From Exiguobacterium sp. s122 (lineage in GTDB: Bacteria > Bacillota > Bacilli > Exiguobacteriales > Exiguobacteriaceae), in assembly GCF_018618475.1 (NCBI RefSeq), contig NZ_JACSMD010000001.1:1054001-1118000 (forward strand): a stretch of 64,000 nucleotides of DNA. The letters run 5' to 3'. Both the position numbers and the translations under genes were made by a program. Below, one piece after another: positions 16,748 through 24,037 of this stretch; the stretch's first letter is position 1, and the number at the start of each line of letters is the position of its first letter. Under the pieces are notes generated by a model. The model did not search any database. It was not told where the DNA came from and saw only the letters and a program-made list of their open reading frames with translations.

Positions 16748-16777
16748 TTGAAATCCAATCTTTCACACGGGTATAAT
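16748..16777 (+). promoter_or_regulatory. SigA-type promoter of the eight-gene transporter/enzyme operon
   Basis: -35 TTGAAA (16748-16753), an 18-base spacer, -10 TATAAT (16772-16777). This is near consensus. Transcription would start near 16784, which rules out the GTG at 16780 as start codon of the first gene and supports GTG 16810. Confidence 0.8.
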
Positions 16778-16809
16778 GGGTGGAGATAGGTGGAAGGGGT
16801 TGTGGGCAC

Positions 16810-17784
16810 GTGGCGAACTGGATTTCGAGCCAATTGGCTAGATTGGACATACCGACGCCGTTTGAAGTCGGGAACGTGAACGTATATATCGTCGAACATA
16901 TGAACCGATTTTTTATGGTCGATTGCGGACCGGATACGGAAGAGGCATGGACATCGTTGAACACGCAACTCGCGGAGCTGGAACTGTCGCTTGAATCGAT
17001 CGACTTTTTGTTTTTGACGCACCACCATGCCGACCACGCCGGGCAAGCGTGGCGCCTTCGAGATGCTTTAATCCCAGTGTATGGCCATGAAAAACTGGTC
17101 CGTTACTTAGAACAGACACCGAACTTCATCAAACGAGGCAATCAATTTTTACACGATTTGGCCCACTCGTTCGGTACACCTGAGTCGATTGTCGCCAAAT
17201 TGCCCGACTATCGCGAGGCGCTACGTTGGATTGGCCCGACGACTGTGACGATGACGTTTGAGGACGGACAGGCCGTTACGCCGGATGGGGCATGGCGGAC
17301 GATTCATTTGCCGGGCCATGCGAGCGATCAACTCGGACTCATCGGACCGGGCGGTGTTTTGATTGCCGGCGATCACCTGATTGATGCGGTCGAACCAAAC
17401 CCCCTCATCGAACAGCCGTATGAAGGCGAGGGGTTCGCGTCCCCGGTGCTCTTGTATCTCGATTCGCTCCGTAAACTCCAGACGTATGAGTTAAAGCTCG
17501 TCGTGAGCGGACACGGGGATCCGATTATGCATCCGATGCCGTTAATTGAGAATCGAATTACACAGCGGTACGACCGGAGCGAGCAACTGCTCGGGGACTG
17601 GGTCGAAGGGTTGAGCGTCTTCGATTGGTCGATGCGCCTTTACGGGCGCAAGATGCGCCACGCGATGCCGCTCGTCTTCAGCGAAGTGTTCGCGCGTCTC
17701 ACGTTGCTCGAAGAACGGGGTCACGTCGAACGGAAGATTGTCGACCGAAAATGGACGTACGAACGAACAAAGGAAGTGGAATGA
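16810..17784 (+). CDS. MBL-fold metallohydrolase with C-terminal helical/winged domain
   Basis: About 324 residues. The metallo-beta-lactamase motif is clear: LTHHHADHAGQ (H-x-H-x-D-H), then LPGHASDQ, the metal-bridging Asp in IAGDHLID, and a final His in VSGHGDPI. The last 70 residues form a separate helical, probably winged-helix domain, as in many broad-specificity MBL hydrolases (YflN/LACTB2-like). GTG 16810 follows ggaagggg at 10 bases. It is first in the operon, and its stop overlaps the SDR start (ATGA). The substrate is unknown; a thioester or other activated ester is typical for the family. Confidence 0.85.
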   Translation: MANWISSQLARLDIPTPFEVGNVNVYIVEHMNRFFMVDCGPDTEEAWTSLNTQLAELELSLESIDFLFLTHHHADHAGQAWRLRDALIPVYGHEKLVRYLEQTPNFIKRGNQFLHDLAHSFGTPESIVAKLPDYREALRWIGPTTVTMTFEDGQAVTPDGAWRTIHLPGHASDQLGLIGPGGVLIAGDHLIDAVEPNPLIEQPYEGEGFASPVLLYLDSLRKLQTYELKLVVSGHGDPIMHPMPLIENRITQRYDRSEQLLGDWVEGLSVFDWSMRLYGRKMRHAMPLVFSEVFARLTLLEERGHVERKIVDRKWTYERTKEVE

Positions 17785-18530
17785 TGAAACATATCGTAAT
17801 CACAGGTGCGTCTAGCGGCTTTGGTGCCGCATTGGCGCACTCTTTTTATGAACGAGGGTACACACTGACGCTCGTCGCGCGGAACGAGGAGCGGCTGAAA
17901 GGCTTGGCCCAACAACTGAACGCAAACTGGCACGTCGCTGACGTCATTACAACTTACGCCACACTCGTCCATGAGATTGAACAGGCGTACGGACCAATCG
18001 ACGGATGGGTGAACAATGCCGGGATTGGTGAGTTCGATGCGGTCGTCGATCAATCGGCGGATGTCATCGAAGAGACGATGGTCTTGAACGCGACAGCGCC
18101 GATGGTGTTGTCACGCGACTGTGCGCAGCGGATGCGAGCCGGTGGGACGATTGTTAACGTCTGCTCACAAGCGGCAAAAGTGCCGACGCCGAAATCGGCC
18201 GTCTATGCCGGTTCGAAAGCGGCCCTTCTTCAGTTTTCGAATGCGCTTCGACTTGAACTAAGACCGAACGGCATTCATGTCCTGACCGTCAATCCAGGAC
18301 CGATCGCGACACCGTTCTTTAAACGGGCCGACAAGAGTGGACGGTATGAACAGAGCGTCAAAGCGATTCTGTTGTCACCGGAACGATTGGCACGTCGCGT
18401 CGTCAAGGCGTATGAACGGTCTGAACGGGAAGTGAATGCGCCGTGGTGGATGGAGCTGGGTGCAAAAATGTATGCGATGTGCCCGGTCTGGTTCGAACGA
18501 CTCGCAAAACGGGGATTTGACAAAAAGTGA
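17781..18530 (+). CDS. Short-chain dehydrogenase/reductase
   Basis: A 249-residue classical SDR. The cofactor motif is TGASSGFG (about 9-16), the structural motif is NNAG, the catalytic Ser is in NVCSQAAK and the active site is YAGSK. A nearby arginine after the first strand (VARNEERL) suggests NADP(H). The start ATG 17781 overlaps the preceding stop by four bases, and 20 bases separate it from the lipoprotein gene, so it belongs to the operon. The longer open frame from 17625 lies inside the MBL gene and is not used. It resembles the SDR at 1964 in size but is not a close copy. Confidence 0.85.
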   Translation: MMKHIVITGASSGFGAALAHSFYERGYTLTLVARNEERLKGLAQQLNANWHVADVITTYATLVHEIEQAYGPIDGWVNNAGIGEFDAVVDQSADVIEETMVLNATAPMVLSRDCAQRMRAGGTIVNVCSQAAKVPTPKSAVYAGSKAALLQFSNALRLELRPNGIHVLTVNPGPIATPFFKRADKSGRYEQSVKAILLSPERLARRVVKAYERSEREVNAPWWMELGAKMYAMCPVWFERLAKRGFDKK

Positions 18531-18550: not shown

Positions 18551-19720
18551 ATGAAACGATTTTTAATCGTCGGGCTCATGCTCGTTTTCATCGTAAGTGC
18601 GTGTGGCCAAGAGCAAGCAGAAGTCGCCGAGACGTTCGATGAGGCGGCCAAAGCCTCTGAAGGAACGACCGTCAACTTTTACTTATGGGGCGGGGACGAG
18701 GGCATCAACCGATATTTAGATGACTATGTCGCCCCTCGCCTCGAGTCTTCATACGGTATCGAATTGAACCGTGTGCCGATGGATACGGCTGAGTTTGTCC
18801 GTCAACTGTCACTCGACAAACGGGCTGACCGAGAACGCGGGACGATTGATTTGATGTGGATCAACGGGGACAACTTCCGTAACGCTGCCGAAGCAGACTT
18901 GTTGACGGGTGGTCTCCTCGAGCGGATTCCGAACGCGACCTTGTTGAACGAAGCGGCGCAAGCGACAGACGCCGGTACGCCGACGAATGGTCTTGAGGTC
19001 GCTTGGGGGAACGTACAATTCGTACTTCATTACGATGCGGCGAACGTTCAAAATCCGCCTGAGACGTTTGAAGAACTCCGTCGGTGGACCGAGGAAAATC
19101 CCGGCCGATTCACGTATCCTGAAGTGACGGACTTTACAGGTAACGCGTTCGTTCGTCATCTGTTATATGCCAAGTATGGGGACGCGTCACGTGATATGGA
19201 GACGATTCCAGACGCGTTTTGGGACGAGCTCGCCTCATGGTCACCGAACTTGTGGAAGCAGGGACAGACTTACCCGAAATCGCTCGCACAACTCGATCAA
19301 CTGTATGCGTCAGGTGAGGTGTGGATGACGATGGGGTTTAATGAGCGCCGGGCCGAGGCGGAAGTGAACGCGGGTGTTTTTCCGGAGGGCACGCGCGCAC
19401 TCGTCTTGGATCACTCCATCTCCTCGACGCACTTTTTGGCGGTACCGTTCAACGCCTCGAATCCGAACGGGGCGCTCGTCGTCATCAATGAGCTGTTAGC
19501 ACCCGAAGTGCAGCTTATGAAGCAACGGGACACGTATTGGGGCGATGGGACGTCACTCGATCTCGATAAGCTCGACGAGCGCGACCGGGAAGCCTTCTTG
19601 TCGCTTGATGACGGCAGCACGTATCCGGACCCGGAGCTCCTGAGCGACCGTCAACTGCCCGATTATGGACCGGACGTGATTGACCAGATTCGAGAGGGGT
19701 GGACGCGTGTCGCGCGTTAA
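18551..19720 (+). CDS. ABC transporter substrate-binding lipoprotein (YnjB-like)
   Basis: A 389-residue exported protein. The N-terminal signal peptide ends in a lipobox (IVSAC, lipidated Cys18), so it is anchored outside the membrane. The mature part is a bacterial extracellular solute-binding protein of the YnjB type (VNFYLWGGDEGINRYLDDYV, later TPTNGLEVAWGN). Downstream are two permeases and an ATPase, so it is the capture subunit of an importer. The start follows a strong ribosome site (aggggggaaag). The ligand is not known for the YnjB family. Confidence 0.85.
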   Translation: MKRFLIVGLMLVFIVSACGQEQAEVAETFDEAAKASEGTTVNFYLWGGDEGINRYLDDYVAPRLESSYGIELNRVPMDTAEFVRQLSLDKRADRERGTIDLMWINGDNFRNAAEADLLTGGLLERIPNATLLNEAAQATDAGTPTNGLEVAWGNVQFVLHYDAANVQNPPETFEELRRWTEENPGRFTYPEVTDFTGNAFVRHLLYAKYGDASRDMETIPDAFWDELASWSPNLWKQGQTYPKSLAQLDQLYASGEVWMTMGFNERRAEAEVNAGVFPEGTRALVLDHSISSTHFLAVPFNASNPNGALVVINELLAPEVQLMKQRDTYWGDGTSLDLDKLDERDREAFLSLDDGSTYPDPELLSDRQLPDYGPDVIDQIREGWTRVAR

Positions 19721-20480
19721 CGTCTTACTTAGCATGGCAGTGTCCCTGCTTCCACTCACGGCGCTCGTGTTTTTATTCCGTGAGTCGGTCGGTGCGGACG
19801 TATGGGGGCTCATGCAAGAGGAGACGTGGCGTGCAAGCCTCGGTGTCACACTCTACGTGACACTCGTTTCGACGTTGTGCTCCCTCGTGCTCGGGACGCT
19901 CGCGGCCCGGGCCGTCTATGTAAACGGTCAAAACTGGCTATTGCGTTGGTTAAAGTGGCCATTGTTTGTCCCACATATCGCGAGTGCATACTTGTTTTAC
20001 TTACTGTTCGCCGACGGATTCCCGTTCGGCCTAATTGAAGCGAACGAACGGCATCATCTCGTCGTCATTGTGACGTATATATGGAAAGAAGTCCCGTTCG
20101 TCTTCCTCATGGTGCTTGGCACGTACGCGCAACTGAACACCGGTTACCGTGACATGGCGAAGACGCTTCAACTGAATCCGTGGCGACAGTTCTCCGTTGC
20201 GGAATGGCCGTTTCTCGTCAAACCGCTCCTCGATTCGTTTTGGATCTTGGTCGCGTTCATCTCGTTCGCTTACGAAGTGCCGGCGCTACTCGGTGTCACG
20301 TTTCCGAAACTGCTCGGCGTTCTCGCTTACGACAGGTTGACGACTGGATTGTTTTTAAATGAGAGTGAAGCGTATGCCGTTGCCTTGATTTGGACGCTCT
20401 TTCTGTTCGGCGGAGTCTTGTTGACGTACGTGTTGACAGCAAAACATAGGCGTCGAATCGAGAAAGGGGTGAGACGATGA
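19707..20480 (+). CDS. ABC transporter permease, first half (YnjC N-half-like)
   Basis: A 257-residue inner membrane permease with about six helices. It has the ABC permease coupling-loop region (YRDMAKTLQLNPWRQFSVAE, an EAA-like loop near residues 148-170). The start is GTG 19707 after gagaggggtgg, overlapping the solute-binding gene by 14 bases. In E. coli YnjC the two permease halves are one polypeptide; here they are two genes overlapping by four bases. Confidence 0.85.
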   Translation: MSRVNVLLSMAVSLLPLTALVFLFRESVGADVWGLMQEETWRASLGVTLYVTLVSTLCSLVLGTLAARAVYVNGQNWLLRWLKWPLFVPHIASAYLFYLLFADGFPFGLIEANERHHLVVIVTYIWKEVPFVFLMVLGTYAQLNTGYRDMAKTLQLNPWRQFSVAEWPFLVKPLLDSFWILVAFISFAYEVPALLGVTFPKLLGVLAYDRLTTGLFLNESEAYAVALIWTLFLFGGVLLTYVLTAKHRRRIEKGVRR

Positions 20481-21172
20481 GACGTCTCGTCATACTCGTC
20501 TTGATCTTATTGCCGTTTAGCGGCTTGTTCACTTCCGTTCCGACTTTCTTTTTTGATGACGCCATCATCAACACGGTTATTCAAGTCCTCGTCATCGTGA
20601 GTCTGAACGTATGGCTTTCGATTGGGACGGCATGGTGGTTGTTGTTCACAGAAACGAAATGGCGCACGTTCATCGAATGGTTCCTGTTTTTGCCGTTGTT
20701 CATCCCGGCGCTCGCCGGTACGTTCGGCATGTACATCGCACTTGCCCGATTCGGTCTCGTCGGCACGACTATTGGCGTGCTCATCGTGTTGCTCGTCGTC
20801 ACGCTCCCTTATTCCATTCGACTCGCCTATAACGCGATGTCTGTCATTGGTCGCCCGATGTTCGAACAGGCGCTATTTATGCCGCCGCTCCGACGATATC
20901 GTGATGTCTTGTTTCCGCTCTTAAGCGGGACGATTCAGACGATTGCGCTCATGTCGACGGTGATTGTGCTCGGTCAATTCGTCCTCATCCAATTAATCGG
21001 AGCAGGACTGATCTCGACCGTGACGACGAGGCTTTATCAAGTATATGCGGGAAATGATGTCGCGCTCGCGTTACAGCACACGTGGCTCTTGATTCTCATT
21101 CCGGCAGTTTTGTACATCGCCATTGGCTGGGGTATACGTCTGGGCGTTAAAATTGTGAAAGGACGGTTATGA
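20477..21172 (+). CDS. ABC transporter permease, second half (YnjC C-half-like)
   Basis: A 231-residue membrane permease with about six helices. An EAA-like coupling loop is visible (MFEQALFMPPLRRYRDVLFP, about 130-149). It pairs with the upstream permease as the second membrane subunit. Start and stop overlap the neighbouring genes by four bases on both sides, which implies tight translational coupling and equal stoichiometry. Confidence 0.85.
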   Translation: MRRLVILVLILLPFSGLFTSVPTFFFDDAIINTVIQVLVIVSLNVWLSIGTAWWLLFTETKWRTFIEWFLFLPLFIPALAGTFGMYIALARFGLVGTTIGVLIVLLVVTLPYSIRLAYNAMSVIGRPMFEQALFMPPLRRYRDVLFPLLSGTIQTIALMSTVIVLGQFVLIQLIGAGLISTVTTRLYQVYAGNDVALALQHTWLLILIPAVLYIAIGWGIRLGVKIVKGRL

Positions 21173-22047
21173 TGGGGTTACAATTGACGAACATTCAAAA
21201 GCGCTTTACTAAACGTGACGTGTTGACAGGCGTCGACTTGTTTGTGAAGCAAGGCGAGATTCATGCATTGGTCGGAACGAGCGGTTCCGGAAAATCGACA
21301 CTGTTACGCATCATCGCGGGACTCGAGTCACCGGATACCGGTACGGTCACTTGGGATGAAAGGTCGTTACTCGGTGTACCAGCGCACGAACGAAAAATCA
21401 CGATGCTGTCGCAGACACCACTGTTGTTCCCGCATTTGACGGTCGGGGAGAACGTAGTGCTCGCAACCCCTGACCGGTCGCGTGAGCAGGCGGAGAAATG
21501 GCTCACGCGCGTCCGACTCGCCGGCCGTTATGATGACGAGGTTCACACGTTGTCAGGTGGGGAGGGGCAACGGGCGAGCTTTGCCCGGGCGCTTGCCGCC
21601 GACCCGCGTCTGATTTTACTCGATGAGCCGTTCACGAACCTCGATCCTGATTTGAAGTATGAGTTGCAACAGTTGACTCGCGATATCGTAAGCGAGCTTG
21701 ATTTGACGACGCTACTCGTGACACATGACCGGGAAGAGGCGATGCTTGTGGCGGACCGGGTCACGTTACTCGAGAACGGGACGATTCATACGACCGGGAC
21801 ACCGCGCGAGCTGAGTGAAACGGAGCCGACGTTCGGTGACTTTATTCGCCTCGAAGGGGAACTCTATCCGCTGACTCGAATCGGTGTGTTTAGCGAAGGG
21901 GCAGGCGAACGGGTGGAGCTCGTTCGTCACCTCGTCAAGTTCGGGGTACGACTCGGTGAGTACCGACGACCGAACGGGGAGTATGTCATCCTCCCTTCGG
22001 ACGTTTCCCAACAGATTGGACAATCGTACCCGTTACGGAAAAAATAA
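21169..22047 (+). CDS. ABC transporter ATP-binding protein (YnjD-like)
   Basis: A 292-residue ABC ATPase with all motifs: Walker A GTSGSGKST (about 38-46), Q-loop (LSQTPLLFPH), signature LSGGEGQRASFARAL, Walker B LILLDEPF and H-loop VTHDREEAM. About 70 residues follow the ATPase core and may form a small regulatory domain. It powers the two upstream permeases. The ATG at 21169 overlaps the preceding stop; the next ATG at 21172 is an alternative. Confidence 0.92.
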   Translation: MMGLQLTNIQKRFTKRDVLTGVDLFVKQGEIHALVGTSGSGKSTLLRIIAGLESPDTGTVTWDERSLLGVPAHERKITMLSQTPLLFPHLTVGENVVLATPDRSREQAEKWLTRVRLAGRYDDEVHTLSGGEGQRASFARALAADPRLILLDEPFTNLDPDLKYELQQLTRDIVSELDLTTLLVTHDREEAMLVADRVTLLENGTIHTTGTPRELSETEPTFGDFIRLEGELYPLTRIGVFSEGAGERVELVRHLVKFGVRLGEYRRPNGEYVILPSDVSQQIGQSYPLRKK

Positions 22048-22058
22048 GGAGTGGTTAC

Positions 22059-22640
22059 ATGTTAGATACGTATGGAAGCCGATTCGTCCGTCCCGTCATC
22101 GAGCGCGGCGCCGATCGGTTGTTAAAGTGGAAGTTTACACCGAACGAAGTGACGCTACTCGGCGGCATCGTCGGCGTGTCCGTCGGCTTCTTCATCTATA
22201 ACGATATGCACTGGACGGCCGTCATCTTGTTATGGCTGTCGGGACTGTTTGATGTATTGGACGGGACGATGGCGCGACGTTCCTCGAAAACAGGATTTGG
22301 GACGGTGTTAGACCTCGTCGTGGACCGTCTCGTCGAGATTTCGGTCGTCATCGCGCTCGCGTTGCGTTACCCCGAGCATATGACCATCTTTCTGTTGCTC
22401 CTCGCTTCGTTCATCGTGGCGATGACCGTGTTTTTGGCCGTGGGTGCGAGCAGTTCTCGCCGATCGGAAAAAACGTTTTACTATCAGCCGGGTGTGCTCG
22501 AACGCACCGAGTGCTTTATCTTATTCAGCCTCATGATTCTATTCCCAAGCTTTGTCGGGGTCATTGCCACAGTGTTCTTCATTCTCGAAGTGGTGACGAT
22601 TTCCCAGCGCATGGTTGAGGCCCGGCGGATTCTCCGATGA
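22059..22640 (+). CDS. CDP-alcohol phosphatidyltransferase family protein (YnjF-like)
   Basis: A 193-residue membrane enzyme with about six helices. The family motif is visible: DVLDGTMARRSSKTGFGTVL followed by two Asp residues (D-x2-D-G-x2-A-R ... G-x3-D-x3-D). The gap before the second Gly is one residue shorter than in PgsA at 49893. The family moves a phosphatidyl or related group from a CDP-alcohol onto a second alcohol. In E. coli the homologue ynjF lies beside the ynjBCD transporter, and this linkage is repeated here. The alcohol acceptor is unknown. Confidence 0.85.
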   Translation: MLDTYGSRFVRPVIERGADRLLKWKFTPNEVTLLGGIVGVSVGFFIYNDMHWTAVILLWLSGLFDVLDGTMARRSSKTGFGTVLDLVVDRLVEISVVIALALRYPEHMTIFLLLLASFIVAMTVFLAVGASSSRRSEKTFYYQPGVLERTECFILFSLMILFPSFVGVIATVFFILEVVTISQRMVEARRILR

Positions 22641-23572
22641 AGCCGCGCCTCGTCCTCGTCGGGCTCGGCCATGGACAGCTCGAGATTTTAGACCGAATCG
22701 ACGAGCTGCGGACGTCATATGACGTCGTGTATATCGGCGGGAAAGACGCCATTTATACCGGTGCCTTCCCACAAGTCATCGCCAAAGAACTGGATTATGC
22801 GACCGTTCATTTGAGAGAAGGCATCGAGCCGGTCGCGTCTCGCCTCGTGTCGCTCGACCCAAACCGACGTGTCGTCATCACGGAAGCAGGCGAGGTGTCG
22901 TATGATGTACTCGTCCTCGCGACGGGCGCGGTGAGCCGCGGGCTCGGGATGGCCGTGAAACCGATGACGAAAGAAGGGGTACATCGAATCGAGGCAAGCG
23001 ATGCCGTCACGATTGTCGGGGGTGGGAAGGCGGGTGTCGAGCTCGCTTTCGCATGTATCCGGACAAAACGTCATGTCACACTCTACGCCCCAGACGTCTT
23101 GCCGGACTTGCCGGCACGTGTGCGACGGACGATGAAGCGGCGCCTCGTAAAGAGCGGTGTCACCCTCGTGTTACGTAAATACGAGAAGGATGCGTGTCAC
23201 GACGGACTTGTTCTCGATACGTCCGGCGTCGTCCCCGATGTTTGGTGGGAGGCTGCCGGACTCGCGAACGCGGACGCGTTTATCGAGACCGACCGGTATT
23301 TGAGGCATATCGATTATGAAAACATCTTCATCACAGGCGATATGGCGTCGAGATTGAATGGGGGCGTTGATGCGGTCCGGTCCGGACGTCACGTCGTCCG
23401 CTATCTGCTCGGAGACCGTCGCCCGTTTCGGGAGCGCGCGTCGCTCAATATTATGCTTACGTTACCGGGCCACGCGTTGTTGACGTATCGGAAGTGGACG
23501 TGGCACGGGCGTCTCCCGTACGATTTGAAGCGTTTCATTGATCAACGCTATTTGAAGCGTTTCGGGCAATAA
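22637..23572 (+). CDS. FAD/NAD(P)-dependent oxidoreductase related to the SelD N-terminal extension
   Basis: A 311-residue pyridine nucleotide-disulfide oxidoreductase fold protein. It has a first dinucleotide-binding segment (LVLVGLGHGQLEILDRI), a second NAD(P)-binding GxGxxG-like segment (VTIVGGGKAGVELAFA) and a C-terminal FAD-contacting ITGDMAS. The N-terminal GHGQLEIL and YTGAFPQVIA segments resemble the oxidoreductase domain fused to selenophosphate synthetase (SelD) in some bacteria, here without SelD. No redox-active CxxC is visible. It is the last gene of the operon, overlapping the previous one by four bases. Confidence 0.75.
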   Translation: MKPRLVLVGLGHGQLEILDRIDELRTSYDVVYIGGKDAIYTGAFPQVIAKELDYATVHLREGIEPVASRLVSLDPNRRVVITEAGEVSYDVLVLATGAVSRGLGMAVKPMTKEGVHRIEASDAVTIVGGGKAGVELAFACIRTKRHVTLYAPDVLPDLPARVRRTMKRRLVKSGVTLVLRKYEKDACHDGLVLDTSGVVPDVWWEAAGLANADAFIETDRYLRHIDYENIFITGDMASRLNGGVDAVRSGRHVVRYLLGDRRPFRERASLNIMLTLPGHALLTYRKWTWHGRLPYDLKRFIDQRYLKRFGQ

Positions 23573-23594
23573 AAAAGACGGCCTCGGCCGTCTT
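23568..23594 (-). terminator. Rho-independent terminator for the thioredoxin-like gene
   Basis: A 9-bp perfect stem (aagacggcc/ggccgtctt) with a 2-base loop. On the minus strand it is followed by TTTTTTATT. On the plus strand only a weak T-run follows (gtcgttt), so it may also partly end the long operon. Confidence 0.75.
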
Positions 23595-23599
23595 GTCGT

Positions 23600-23914
23600 T
23601 TATGCGTTCAACGTATCGAGGAACGAACGGATTTGCATCTCCGTTTTGGCGTGTGCCGAGTGGAGGTGTTCTTGTTTCGTCCCGTTTTGGTAAAAGAGCA
23701 ACGACGGGATGCCGCGCACTTCTTGATCGTCAGAGAGTTCCGGTAACTCGTCGCGGTCGACGACGTACCAATTGAACTGTGGATAGTCTTTGACAAGTTC
23801 GTCGACGTACATATCGAGGCGACGGCAATCCGGACACCAAGACGTCGTGAAAATGACCATGCCGTTGTCTTTCGTCGCTTCTTGGAATTGCTCGGCTGAT
23901 TGAATCGGTTTCAT
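23600..23914 (-). CDS. Thioredoxin family protein
   Basis: A 104-residue thioredoxin fold. The active site is SWCPDCRRLD (Cys-Pro-Asp-Cys), and the cis-proline is in VRGIPSLLFY. A Pro-Asp dipeptide between the cysteines differs from the Gly-Pro of thioredoxin and suggests a specialised disulfide reductase. ATG 23914 has a ribosome site (aggggag at 8 bases); the frame extends seven codons further upstream. It is monocistronic and convergent with the transporter operon. Confidence 0.85.
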   Translation of the reverse strand: MKPIQSAEQFQEATKDNGMVIFTTSWCPDCRRLDMYVDELVKDYPQFNWYVVDRDELPELSDDQEVRGIPSLLFYQNGTKQEHLHSAHAKTEMQIRSFLDTLNA

Positions 23915-24037
23915 CGTAAAATCTCCCCTTTCCACTTTATTGTCTGTGTCTTTTAGCCGTCCGTCAACCGATTGGCGTTCTCGGTCTGTTCGCTAGATGT
24001 GATACACTGAAAAAAATAGAACCGCAAGGGATAGGTG

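Follow-up and report, generated by a model that had tools for sequence, protein, structure and literature searches.

Introduction

In the passages available from the literature on selenophosphate synthetase (SelD), the oxidoreductase domain that precedes this enzyme in some bacteria (NCBIfam family TIGR03169, Nterm_to_SelD) is called, when fused to SelD, an NADH oxidoreductase of COG1252 (PMC2432076); SelD-oxidoreductase fusions are described there as common (PMC2398784, PMC4561486) and their function as not fully clear (PMC2398784), and the available parts of PMC13188914 make no mention of a SelD fusion. The NCBIfam entry TIGR04369 ('fusion_not_SelD') already implies uses of the domain other than SelD. 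The other system of interest here is the Escherichia coli gene set ydjXYZ-ynjABCD with ynjE and ynjF: the excerpts seen of PMC3688515 list ydjXYZ-ynjABCD and ynjE in an FNR regulon table, with ynjE directly activated, and those of PMC7818093, PMC10127716 and PMC3836016 treat DedA/Tvp38 proteins, including YdjX and YdjZ. Here we describe a gene from a 64,000-nucleotide stretch of the genome of Exiguobacterium sp. s122 (contig NZ_JACSMD010000001.1, positions 1,054,001 to 1,118,000; hereafter the window) that encodes a standalone, divergent relative of the SelD-partner domain and closes an operon of ynj homologues. This flavoprotein gene, its product and its relatives are called FLAV (coordinates in Table 1).

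We consider it probable that FLAV is a nicotinamide adenine dinucleotide (phosphate) (NAD(P)H)-dependent, flavin adenine dinucleotide (FAD)-containing oxidoreductase, serving as the redox component of a Ynj membrane module and not working with SelD in this organism. A sequence-only reading of the window had noticed the resemblance to the SelD-partner domain and had suggested that the fold works with a small-molecule pathway, its fusion to SelD being one of several uses; taken as a whole, that interpretation is partly supported by the analysis below. In the open-access literature examined, mostly titles, starts of abstracts and passages, no link between the SelD-partner domain and the ynj genes was found, subscription papers lying outside that search.

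FLAV closes a Ynj operon

The FLAV open reading frame (ORF) begins with ATG, contains no internal stops and ends with the stop codon at 23570-23572. It is the last gene, before a terminator-like hairpin, of a six-gene same-strand run in the order ynjB-C-C-D-F-FLAV, and the ATGA overlap of the ynjF stop with its start is present in all 19 genomes of the genus. The observation that a standalone FLAV gene closes a Ynj operon is thereby confirmed; the sequence-only reading had already placed it at the end of a transporter operon, leaving the CDP-alcohol phosphatidyltransferase gene (CDP, cytidine diphosphate) unnamed. Every one of the 19 genomes has a FLAV orthologue, the other 18 being 59-81% identical to the window protein, and the complete gene order, together with the convergent thioredoxin-like gene, recurs in all 16 regions fetched from those 18 genomes. 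Ratios of nonsynonymous to synonymous substitution rates (dN/dS) were calculated for seven pairs of FLAV genes; five lie at 0.07-0.14, one at 0.26 and that of a nearly identical pair at 0.42, values pointing to purifying selection. YnjF is far better conserved across the genus (80-96% identity) than are the transporter subunits and FLAV of the same operon (53-85%).

The substrate-binding protein is a member of the YnjB family (NF008633, PRK11622; score in Table 1), and the genes for the ATPase, the permeases and the phosphatidyltransferase lie in one run with it. No curated YnjF model scored over its cut-off, the best being NF040950 with 86.3 bits against 180. The nearest solved relatives of YnjF are phosphatidylinositol-phosphate synthases (inositol-phosphate phosphatidyltransferases), which suggests by analogy that YnjF may carry out a CDP-diacylglycerol-dependent head-group transfer, the head group not being named thereby. 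The predicted YnjB model (predicted local distance difference test score, pLDDT, 88.6) matched binders of sugars, polyamines, iron and glycerophosphodiesters about equally, so that no YnjB ligand follows from it.

The likeness to E. coli lies in the joint presence of ynjB, C, D and F and in the DedA-family YdjX and YdjZ; no counterpart of YdjY, YnjA or YnjE was seen in the window operon. In E. coli, ynjBCD is followed by ynjE, which is annotated as a molybdopterin synthase sulfurtransferase. The selD gene of E. coli K-12 lies ~5.6 kb from ynjF (NC_000913.3 1841403-1846965) with other genes between, probably by coincidence.

Relation to the SelD-partner family

FLAV belongs to Pyr_redox_2 (63.6 bits, cut-off 26.1), and its best NCBIfam match is TIGR03169 (69.6 bits, E 2.9e-19, model positions 2-365 of 365), followed by TIGR04369 (54.2 bits), lipoamide dehydrogenase (36.7 bits) and the coenzyme A (CoA)-disulfide reductases (at most 19.8 bits). 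The curated TIGR03169 cut-off of 310 bits is not reached. Two host proteins that we call type II NADH dehydrogenase (NDH-2)-like, for which the scan listed no NDH-2 model, score above FLAV with TIGR03169 (104.9 and 101.7 bits), and the model gives matches in all 14 control genomes; the best match was rejected as proof of family on these two grounds. Since the TIGR03169 match alone decides nothing, the family call was moved to a hidden Markov model (HMM) built from the 19 FLAV sequences of the genus and scored on 22 family proteins, which included standalone, SelD-fused and plasmid-borne forms.

With this orthologue HMM, 21 of the 22 family proteins scored 53.1-95.7 bits and the remaining one, from Roseomonas, 26.3 bits. 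Six host oxidoreductases scored 5.5-25.2 bits; the values were 21.0 and 13.2 bits for the two NDH-2-like proteins of the host and 19.1 bits for its CoA-disulfide-reductase-like protein. FLAV is thus nearer to the SelD-preceding family than to NDH-2 or its other relatives in the same genome, and the resemblance seen in the sequence-only reading, weak by the TIGR03169 match alone, holds in this comparison; a better match to NDH-2 or to CoA-disulfide reductases, which would have told against it, was not found by sequence. Alignment of the 19 orthologues with five family members in hhalign gave a probability of 99.9 and E 2e-32 over 301 columns, and the homology to TIGR03169 runs from end to end of the domain and takes in the C-terminal LK..ID tail.

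A database scan with the single FLAV protein returned no relatives, and the 27 relatives that were aligned are 20-29% identical to it. In the tree, the window clade sits on a long branch with or without an NDH-2 outgroup, and the approximately unbiased (AU) test rejected neither a position inside Bacillota (p 0.606) nor one as sister to the FLAV of the sister genus (p 0.323). Compared with TIGR03169, FLAV shares the full-length alignment, the FAD and NAD motifs and the C-terminal tail; it differs in its length (311 as against about 350-365 residues, that is, ~40-50 fewer), in the replacement of the AH of GxGHAH and of YSGM, and in the lack of a SelD partner. The relatives of Bacilli and Proteobacteria that likewise stand alone and beside ynj genes, the plasmid-borne ones being annotated 'FAD-dependent oxidoreductase', differ from it in reaching 209-369 bits with TIGR03169 in the 12 scanned (five from Bacilli, 209-315; seven proteobacterial, 214-369). 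On these sequence comparisons, FLAV is a shortened, fast-diverged offshoot of the Nterm_to_SelD family, outside of which it falls by the curated cut-off.

Motifs, cysteines and predicted fold

The canonical GxGHAH and YSGM motifs are absent from all 19 orthologues, which carry GLGHGQ and YTGA instead; G9, G11 and H12 are invariant in a 46-row alignment. Of the two cysteines of FLAV, Cys187 varies among the 19 orthologues, and Cys140, which lies in the NAD domain, is the only one that all of them keep; a disulfide-reductase route is therefore unlikely. In particular, the conserved flavin-side redox-active cysteine of the CoA-disulfide reductases, which belong to the same Pyr_redox_2 superfamily, has no counterpart in FLAV.

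The AlphaFold2 model of FLAV, obtained with the 46-row alignment, has a mean pLDDT of 94.2. It matches type II NADH dehydrogenases with Z about 31 over 309 of 311 residues, at 16-23% identity in the structure comparison, the YutJ model with Z 31.4 and FSP1 with Z 26.8 over 306 residues; FSP1/AIFM2 is also the best PDB profile match (106 bits) of the family alignment A2. With NDH-2 (PDB 4nwz, 5na1) and FSP1/AIFM2 (8wik, 9ift) the model has in common the whole-length fold and, as a prediction, a single FAD/NAD(P)H route, whereas FLAV is shorter, of low identity and devoid of the NDH-2 quinone-side motif. By the predicted fold alone NDH-2 is the closest class, a shared fold not showing function.

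Gene neighbourhoods of FLAV relatives

A species-genome collection was scanned with five standalone members, giving at least 589 pattern matches, and the best 80 of 514 confirmed loci were analysed; this sample is biased towards Bacilli and standalone forms and is no census, and 20 of its loci are shorter than 16 kb. Among these best 80, ynjB and/or ynjF lies within 9 kb of FLAV in 37, only VTT or VTT-linked oxidoreductase genes in four, and SelD in two, where by coordinates it is inside the same ORF as FLAV. A looser count, 40 of 76 loci within 6 kb, was dropped in favour of this ynjB/ynjF-only count because generic permeases passed as ynjC; the count adopted also includes four loci whose FLAV had been missed by ORF picking. 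FLAV is co-directional with the ynj genes in Pseudalkalibacillus and Shouchella, part of the set is divergent in Planococcus, and the two stand tail-to-tail in Halobacillus and Rossellomorea; since the gene order varies, the link between FLAV and ynj is not one inherited arrangement. Two ynj clusters have a gene for an LPG-synthase-TM (flippase-like) protein placed between ynjB and a VTT gene (L164:1213-2286, by Pfam; L171:1457-2410, by eye).

In Rhizobium sp. G21, FLAV, a VTT-oxidoreductase-DUF547 fusion, ynjF, ynjB, ynjC and ynjD follow one another in one direction. PLSDB holds 84 plasmid records with a relative of this FLAV at E 1e-20, from which 13 regions were fetched for variety of organisms, four of them unannotated and read by tblastn. 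Complete ynj sets lie beside FLAV in six of the 13 (Ciceribacter, Rhizobium rhizoryzae, Pseudooceanicola, Paracoccus, E. coli and Klebsiella). The E. coli cluster is on the IncC plasmid pYDC637, and the same cluster is found in Klebsiella (IncR) and in Providencia (IncC), where an IS26 segment carrying resistance genes splits it downstream of ynjB; by megablast, the plasmid FLAV gene is present in 3 of 5,426 complete E. coli genomes, on plasmids only. In Sphingopyxis, Burkholderia glumae and Roseomonas, VTT-oxidoreductase genes stand beside FLAV with no ynjB or ynjF, and in Pseudorhodobacter and Indioceanicola SelD is directly behind it; the annotation of the Deinococcus region has no ynj, VTT-oxidoreductase or SelD gene near FLAV. 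The use of the domain found here is the Ynj module, and the earlier proposal of several uses, SelD fusion being one, is supported: standalone members lie beside ynj genes in Bacillota, alphaproteobacteria and enterobacterial plasmids, one relative is in an arsenosugar-type cluster, two are beside VTT/oxidoreductase genes without ynj, and others are SelD fusions or neighbours.

Two further contexts were seen on the plasmids. In E. coli, Klebsiella and Providencia (L178, L186, L187), DUF2282-MNIO-DUF2063-DoxX genes of the bufferin type are joined to the VTT-oxidoreductase fusion, FLAV and ynj. On the B. glumae plasmid bglu_2p (L177), the FLAV relative has arsenosugar-type glycosyltransferase genes on one side and a convergent VTT-oxidoreductase fusion on the other, and arsS is ~8 kb away; this is a further non-selenium context. 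Homologues of the TIGR04283 glycosyltransferase of this plasmid lie near FLAV in three of the 80 named loci (L119:11797-12453, L138:7043-7702, L143:6962-7636) and also in the Deinococcus and Roseomonas plasmid regions (L179, L181).

Co-occurrence with ynj genes

The phyletic sample comprised 398 genomes of the window's class (Bacilli) from 145 genera, of which 56 were counted as having FLAV, 37 with a full-length form at 379 bits or more and 19 with the divergent form. The family alignment search had given 47 genomes at E 1e-30 or better, ten of which were set aside: nine with full-length proteins at 107-121 bits, judged NDH-like, and one with a 92-residue C-terminal fragment (G217). The gene ynjF (E 1e-25 or better) is present in 67 of the 398 genomes, and these include all 56 with FLAV. 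By genus, all nine FLAV genera fall within the 20 ynjF genera of the 145, with a hypergeometric probability of 2.8e-9, or 1.5e-7 without Exiguobacteriaceae, both figures treating genera as independent, which they are not. A search for ynjB in 72 genomes found it in all 31 FLAV genomes tested and in 9 of the 11 that have ynjF but lack FLAV, while none of the 30 lacking both had it; two of these 30 (G121, G251) belong to a genus in which FLAV, ynjF and ynjB are all present in eight other genomes. The C-terminal fragment (G217:C6:162942-163217) contains an in-frame TGA and is probably a decayed family member; its genome gave no ynjF match, so that the decay perhaps followed the loss of ynj. If the fragment is counted, the co-occurrence with ynjF becomes 56 of 57.

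Selenium genes

The host genome (2.98 Mb, 100% complete by estimate) was searched as a whole with profiles for selD and selA, ybbB and tRNA-Sec lying outside the search, and neither scored over its cut-off: the best selD hit, an ORF judged to be PurL, had 45.5 bits against 125, and the best selA hit, judged SufS-like, 22.4 bits against 267.9. FLAV, with its own stop codon, is neither fused to SelD nor encoded together with it in this host, so that the absence of a selenium gene noted earlier for the window extends, for selD and selA, to the whole genome. In the class, selD is over the cut-off in 120 of 398 genomes. Eight of the 56 FLAV genomes have it, none of the 38 Exiguobacteriaceae and eight of the 18 others, and in all eight selD is on another contig or more than 1 Mb from FLAV.

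Sister genus and thiamin

In the sister genus, Exiguobacterium sensu stricto (sibiricum, antarcticum), the ynj operon is in the same chromosomal place, with a NUDIX gene after ynjF in all six fetched genomes and, in one of them (G024), a thioredoxin homologue there too. In all six loci searched with Rfam, FLAV of this genus closes a ykoE-D-C operon preceded by a thiamin pyrophosphate (TPP) riboswitch. The gene ykoE is found in 18 of 19 genomes of this genus. G024, which has no ykoE match, retains FLAV immediately after a GNAT-aminotransferase gene, a kind of gene seen near FLAV in this genus (L058:1944-3554, L162:5689-7539). Three of the six yko loci have a homologue of this gene ahead of the riboswitch, and a fourth has remnants of one. 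The window genome has ykoEDC with its own TPP element and without FLAV. No TPP element was found in the window between 14000 and 30000, nor near FLAV in the 18 FLAV genomes outside Exiguobacteriaceae, the nearest on the same contig being ~15 kb away. The thiamin link was seen in no genus but the sister genus, and even there only where ykoEDC is present; it was thus rejected as a general one, and we read it as local.

Other features of the locus

Upstream, the genes for a hydrolase and a short-chain dehydrogenase run into the ynj-FLAV set (Table 1). Homologues of the convergent WCPDC thioredoxin-like gene lie at most 0.5 kb from FLAV in 13 of the 80 named loci, in both orientations, and a fourteenth (L087) is at 7 kb; the loci noted with such a homologue are L079, L084, L088, L093, L099, L101, L102, L105, L106, L108, L110, L111, L149 and L155.

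Table 1. Features of the FLAV locus, in window positions
Feature	Position	Strand	Remarks
FLAV	22637..23572	+	311 aa, standalone, divergent relative of the Nterm_to_SelD domain
FAD-binding GLGHGQ, FLAV residues 9-14	22661..22678	+	GGGHAH/GAGHAH in five aligned canonical relatives
YTGAFPQ, FLAV residues 40-46	22754..22774	+	YSGM in canonical relatives; invariant in 19/19 orthologues
NAD(P)-binding GGGKAGVE, FLAV residues 128-135	23018..23041	+	by alignment
GD of second FAD motif, FLAV residues 234-235	23336..23341	+	by alignment
C-terminal tail LN...A...G...LK..ID, FLAV residues 270-310	23444..23566	+	common to the SelD-preceding family
ynjF homologue, CDP-alcohol phosphatidyltransferase	22059..22640	+	stop overlaps FLAV start, ATGA 22637-22640
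ynjD homologue, ABC (ATP-binding cassette) transporter ATPase	21169..22047	+	profile matches
ynjC homologue, permease 2	20477..21172	+	profile matches
ynjC homologue, permease 1	19680..20480	+	start uncertain
ynjB homologue, substrate-binding protein	18551..19720	+	NF008633, 388 bits against a cut-off of 203
Short-chain dehydrogenase	17781..18530	+	upstream of ynjB in both Exiguobacteriaceae genera
Metallo-beta-lactamase-fold hydrolase	16780..17784	+	upstream of ynjB in both Exiguobacteriaceae genera; start uncertain
Sigma-70-like promoter match, 11/12	16748..16777	+	consensus match only; 7 sites against 4.4 in shuffles
Intrinsic-terminator-like hairpin	23575..23594	+	between FLAV and the convergent thioredoxin-like gene; consensus match only
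WCPDC thioredoxin-like gene	23600..23935	-	convergent neighbour in 16/16 fetched genomes of the genus

Discussion

In the mechanism that we propose, FLAV, with its predicted type II NADH dehydrogenase/FSP1-like fold, would pass electrons from NAD(P)H via FAD directly to an acceptor in one step, a straight route suggested because it has no redox-active cysteine pair. The core of the module would be the ABC transporter YnjBCD together with YnjF, the CDP-alcohol phosphatidyltransferase and a probable partner of FLAV; a membrane protein of the VTT/TVP38 kind and a second flavoprotein, this one with cysteines, often join them. The acceptor would most likely be either a membrane quinone or a small molecule or lipid head group imported or made by the module; a membrane acceptor is suggested because the partners are membrane proteins (the permeases, the phosphatidyltransferase, VTT and, in one cluster, LPG-synthase-TM). 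The role in a small-molecule pathway that the sequence-only reading had proposed is plausible. A more far-reaching version, which we hold tentatively and regard as doubtful, is that the SelD-partner domain serves first of all as dedicated electron donor to a widespread, so far undescribed Ynj/VTT/second-flavoprotein module, common to Bacillota and Proteobacteria and present on resistance plasmids, whose task would be the synthesis or repair of a special membrane lipid or lipid-linked cofactor, in analogy to FSP1-type membrane protection, the SelD fusion being one recruitment.

Several observations weigh against assigning FLAV to a Ynj module in this way. There are no ynj, VTT/oxidoreductase or SelD genes within 9 kb of FLAV in 37 of the 80 named loci, of which four are from Exiguobacterium with the ynj operon elsewhere, and the FLAV of the sister genus, canonical in form, sits away from ynj, mostly in the thiamin-riboswitch operon. 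Conversely, 11 of the 67 ynjF genomes and the ynj region of E. coli K-12 are without FLAV, which is therefore an accessory component. The orthologue HMM does not separate the Roseomonas member (26.3 bits) from a Planococcus oxidoreductase of another kind (25.5 bits). PPTAQIATQQ of the NDH-2-like host protein is aligned by eye with NGGVDAVRSG in FLAV, so that the quinone-side motif, in which the glutamine serves quinone binding in NDH-2, is not kept. The helix at the C-terminus of FLAV shows no marked amphipathicity (its moment ranks 123rd among 294 windows), membrane binding being unsupported by this test. Finally, the parts of the literature examined give no substrate, product or phenotype of the Ynj module.

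Other explanations account for part of the same evidence. An ordinary respiratory NDH-2 paralogue, carrying electrons from NADH to menaquinone in an incidental ynj neighbourhood, would agree with the NDH-2-like fold over the whole length of FLAV and with the two host NDH-2-like proteins that outscore it with TIGR03169; we nevertheless consider it quite unlikely, given that these two proteins stay at 21.0 and 13.2 bits with the orthologue HMM, which gives 53-96 bits to all but one of the 22 family members, that FLAV does not keep the quinone-side motif, and that the co-occurrence with ynjF in 56 of 56 genomes would be left unexplained. A chalcogen reductase acting on a selenium or sulfur compound and supplying the Ynj system, fairly unlikely in our judgement, would extend what has been proposed for SelD fusions, where according to the passage available of PMC2432076 the oxidoreductase part is proposed to produce a reduced form of selenium for use by SelD, and would suit the sulfurtransferase annotation of E. 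coli ynjE, the gene after ynjBCD. The lack of selD and selA above cut-off in the host, of selD in 48 of the 56 FLAV genomes, and of any conserved cysteine other than Cys140 in the 19 orthologues speaks against it.

The plasmid contexts raise the prospect of a metal- or metalloid-stress enzyme within a copper or arsenic stress module. The DUF2282, MNIO, DUF2063 and DoxX genes joined to the cluster on the three fetched enterobacterial plasmids are, in the excerpt seen of PMC12452194, the core of copper-binding bufferin clusters; the B. glumae plasmid also has DUF2282, MNIO and DUF2063, besides the FLAV relative in the arsenosugar-type cluster with arsS, and the wider spread of the TIGR04283 glycosyltransferase homologues fits as well. 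Homologues of DUF2282, MNIO, DUF2063, DoxX and (partial) ArsS were, however, found in none of the 80 named loci and in none of six further ynj/FLAV loci (E 1e-5), so that such a link is rare, and we find this explanation very unlikely. Most improbable to us is a thiamin-precursor enzyme, for which the place of the sister-genus homologue at the end of the riboswitch-controlled ykoE-ykoD-ykoC operon (6 of 6 loci; ykoE in 18 of 19 genomes) argues, and which the retention of FLAV in G024 without a ykoE match, the window genome's ykoEDC without FLAV and the absence of TPP elements near FLAV, both in the window interval and in the 18 genomes outside Exiguobacteriaceae, argue against.

Taken together, a redox component of the Ynj membrane module is the role that we favour for FLAV. 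In the literature examined, as far as it was available, the SelD-fusion oxidoreductase domain is without a demonstrated reaction and the ynj genes are without an assigned function; the phyletic pattern and the gene order in three bacterial groups join these two uncharacterised parts into one system that is testable as to its lipids, its acceptor and the ligand of its transporter. The finding is also a warning that the SelD-partner domain should not be read as a selenium marker. An orphan SelD-partner domain gains in this way a new, testable partner, namely a gene set for an ABC transporter and a lipid-head-group enzyme.

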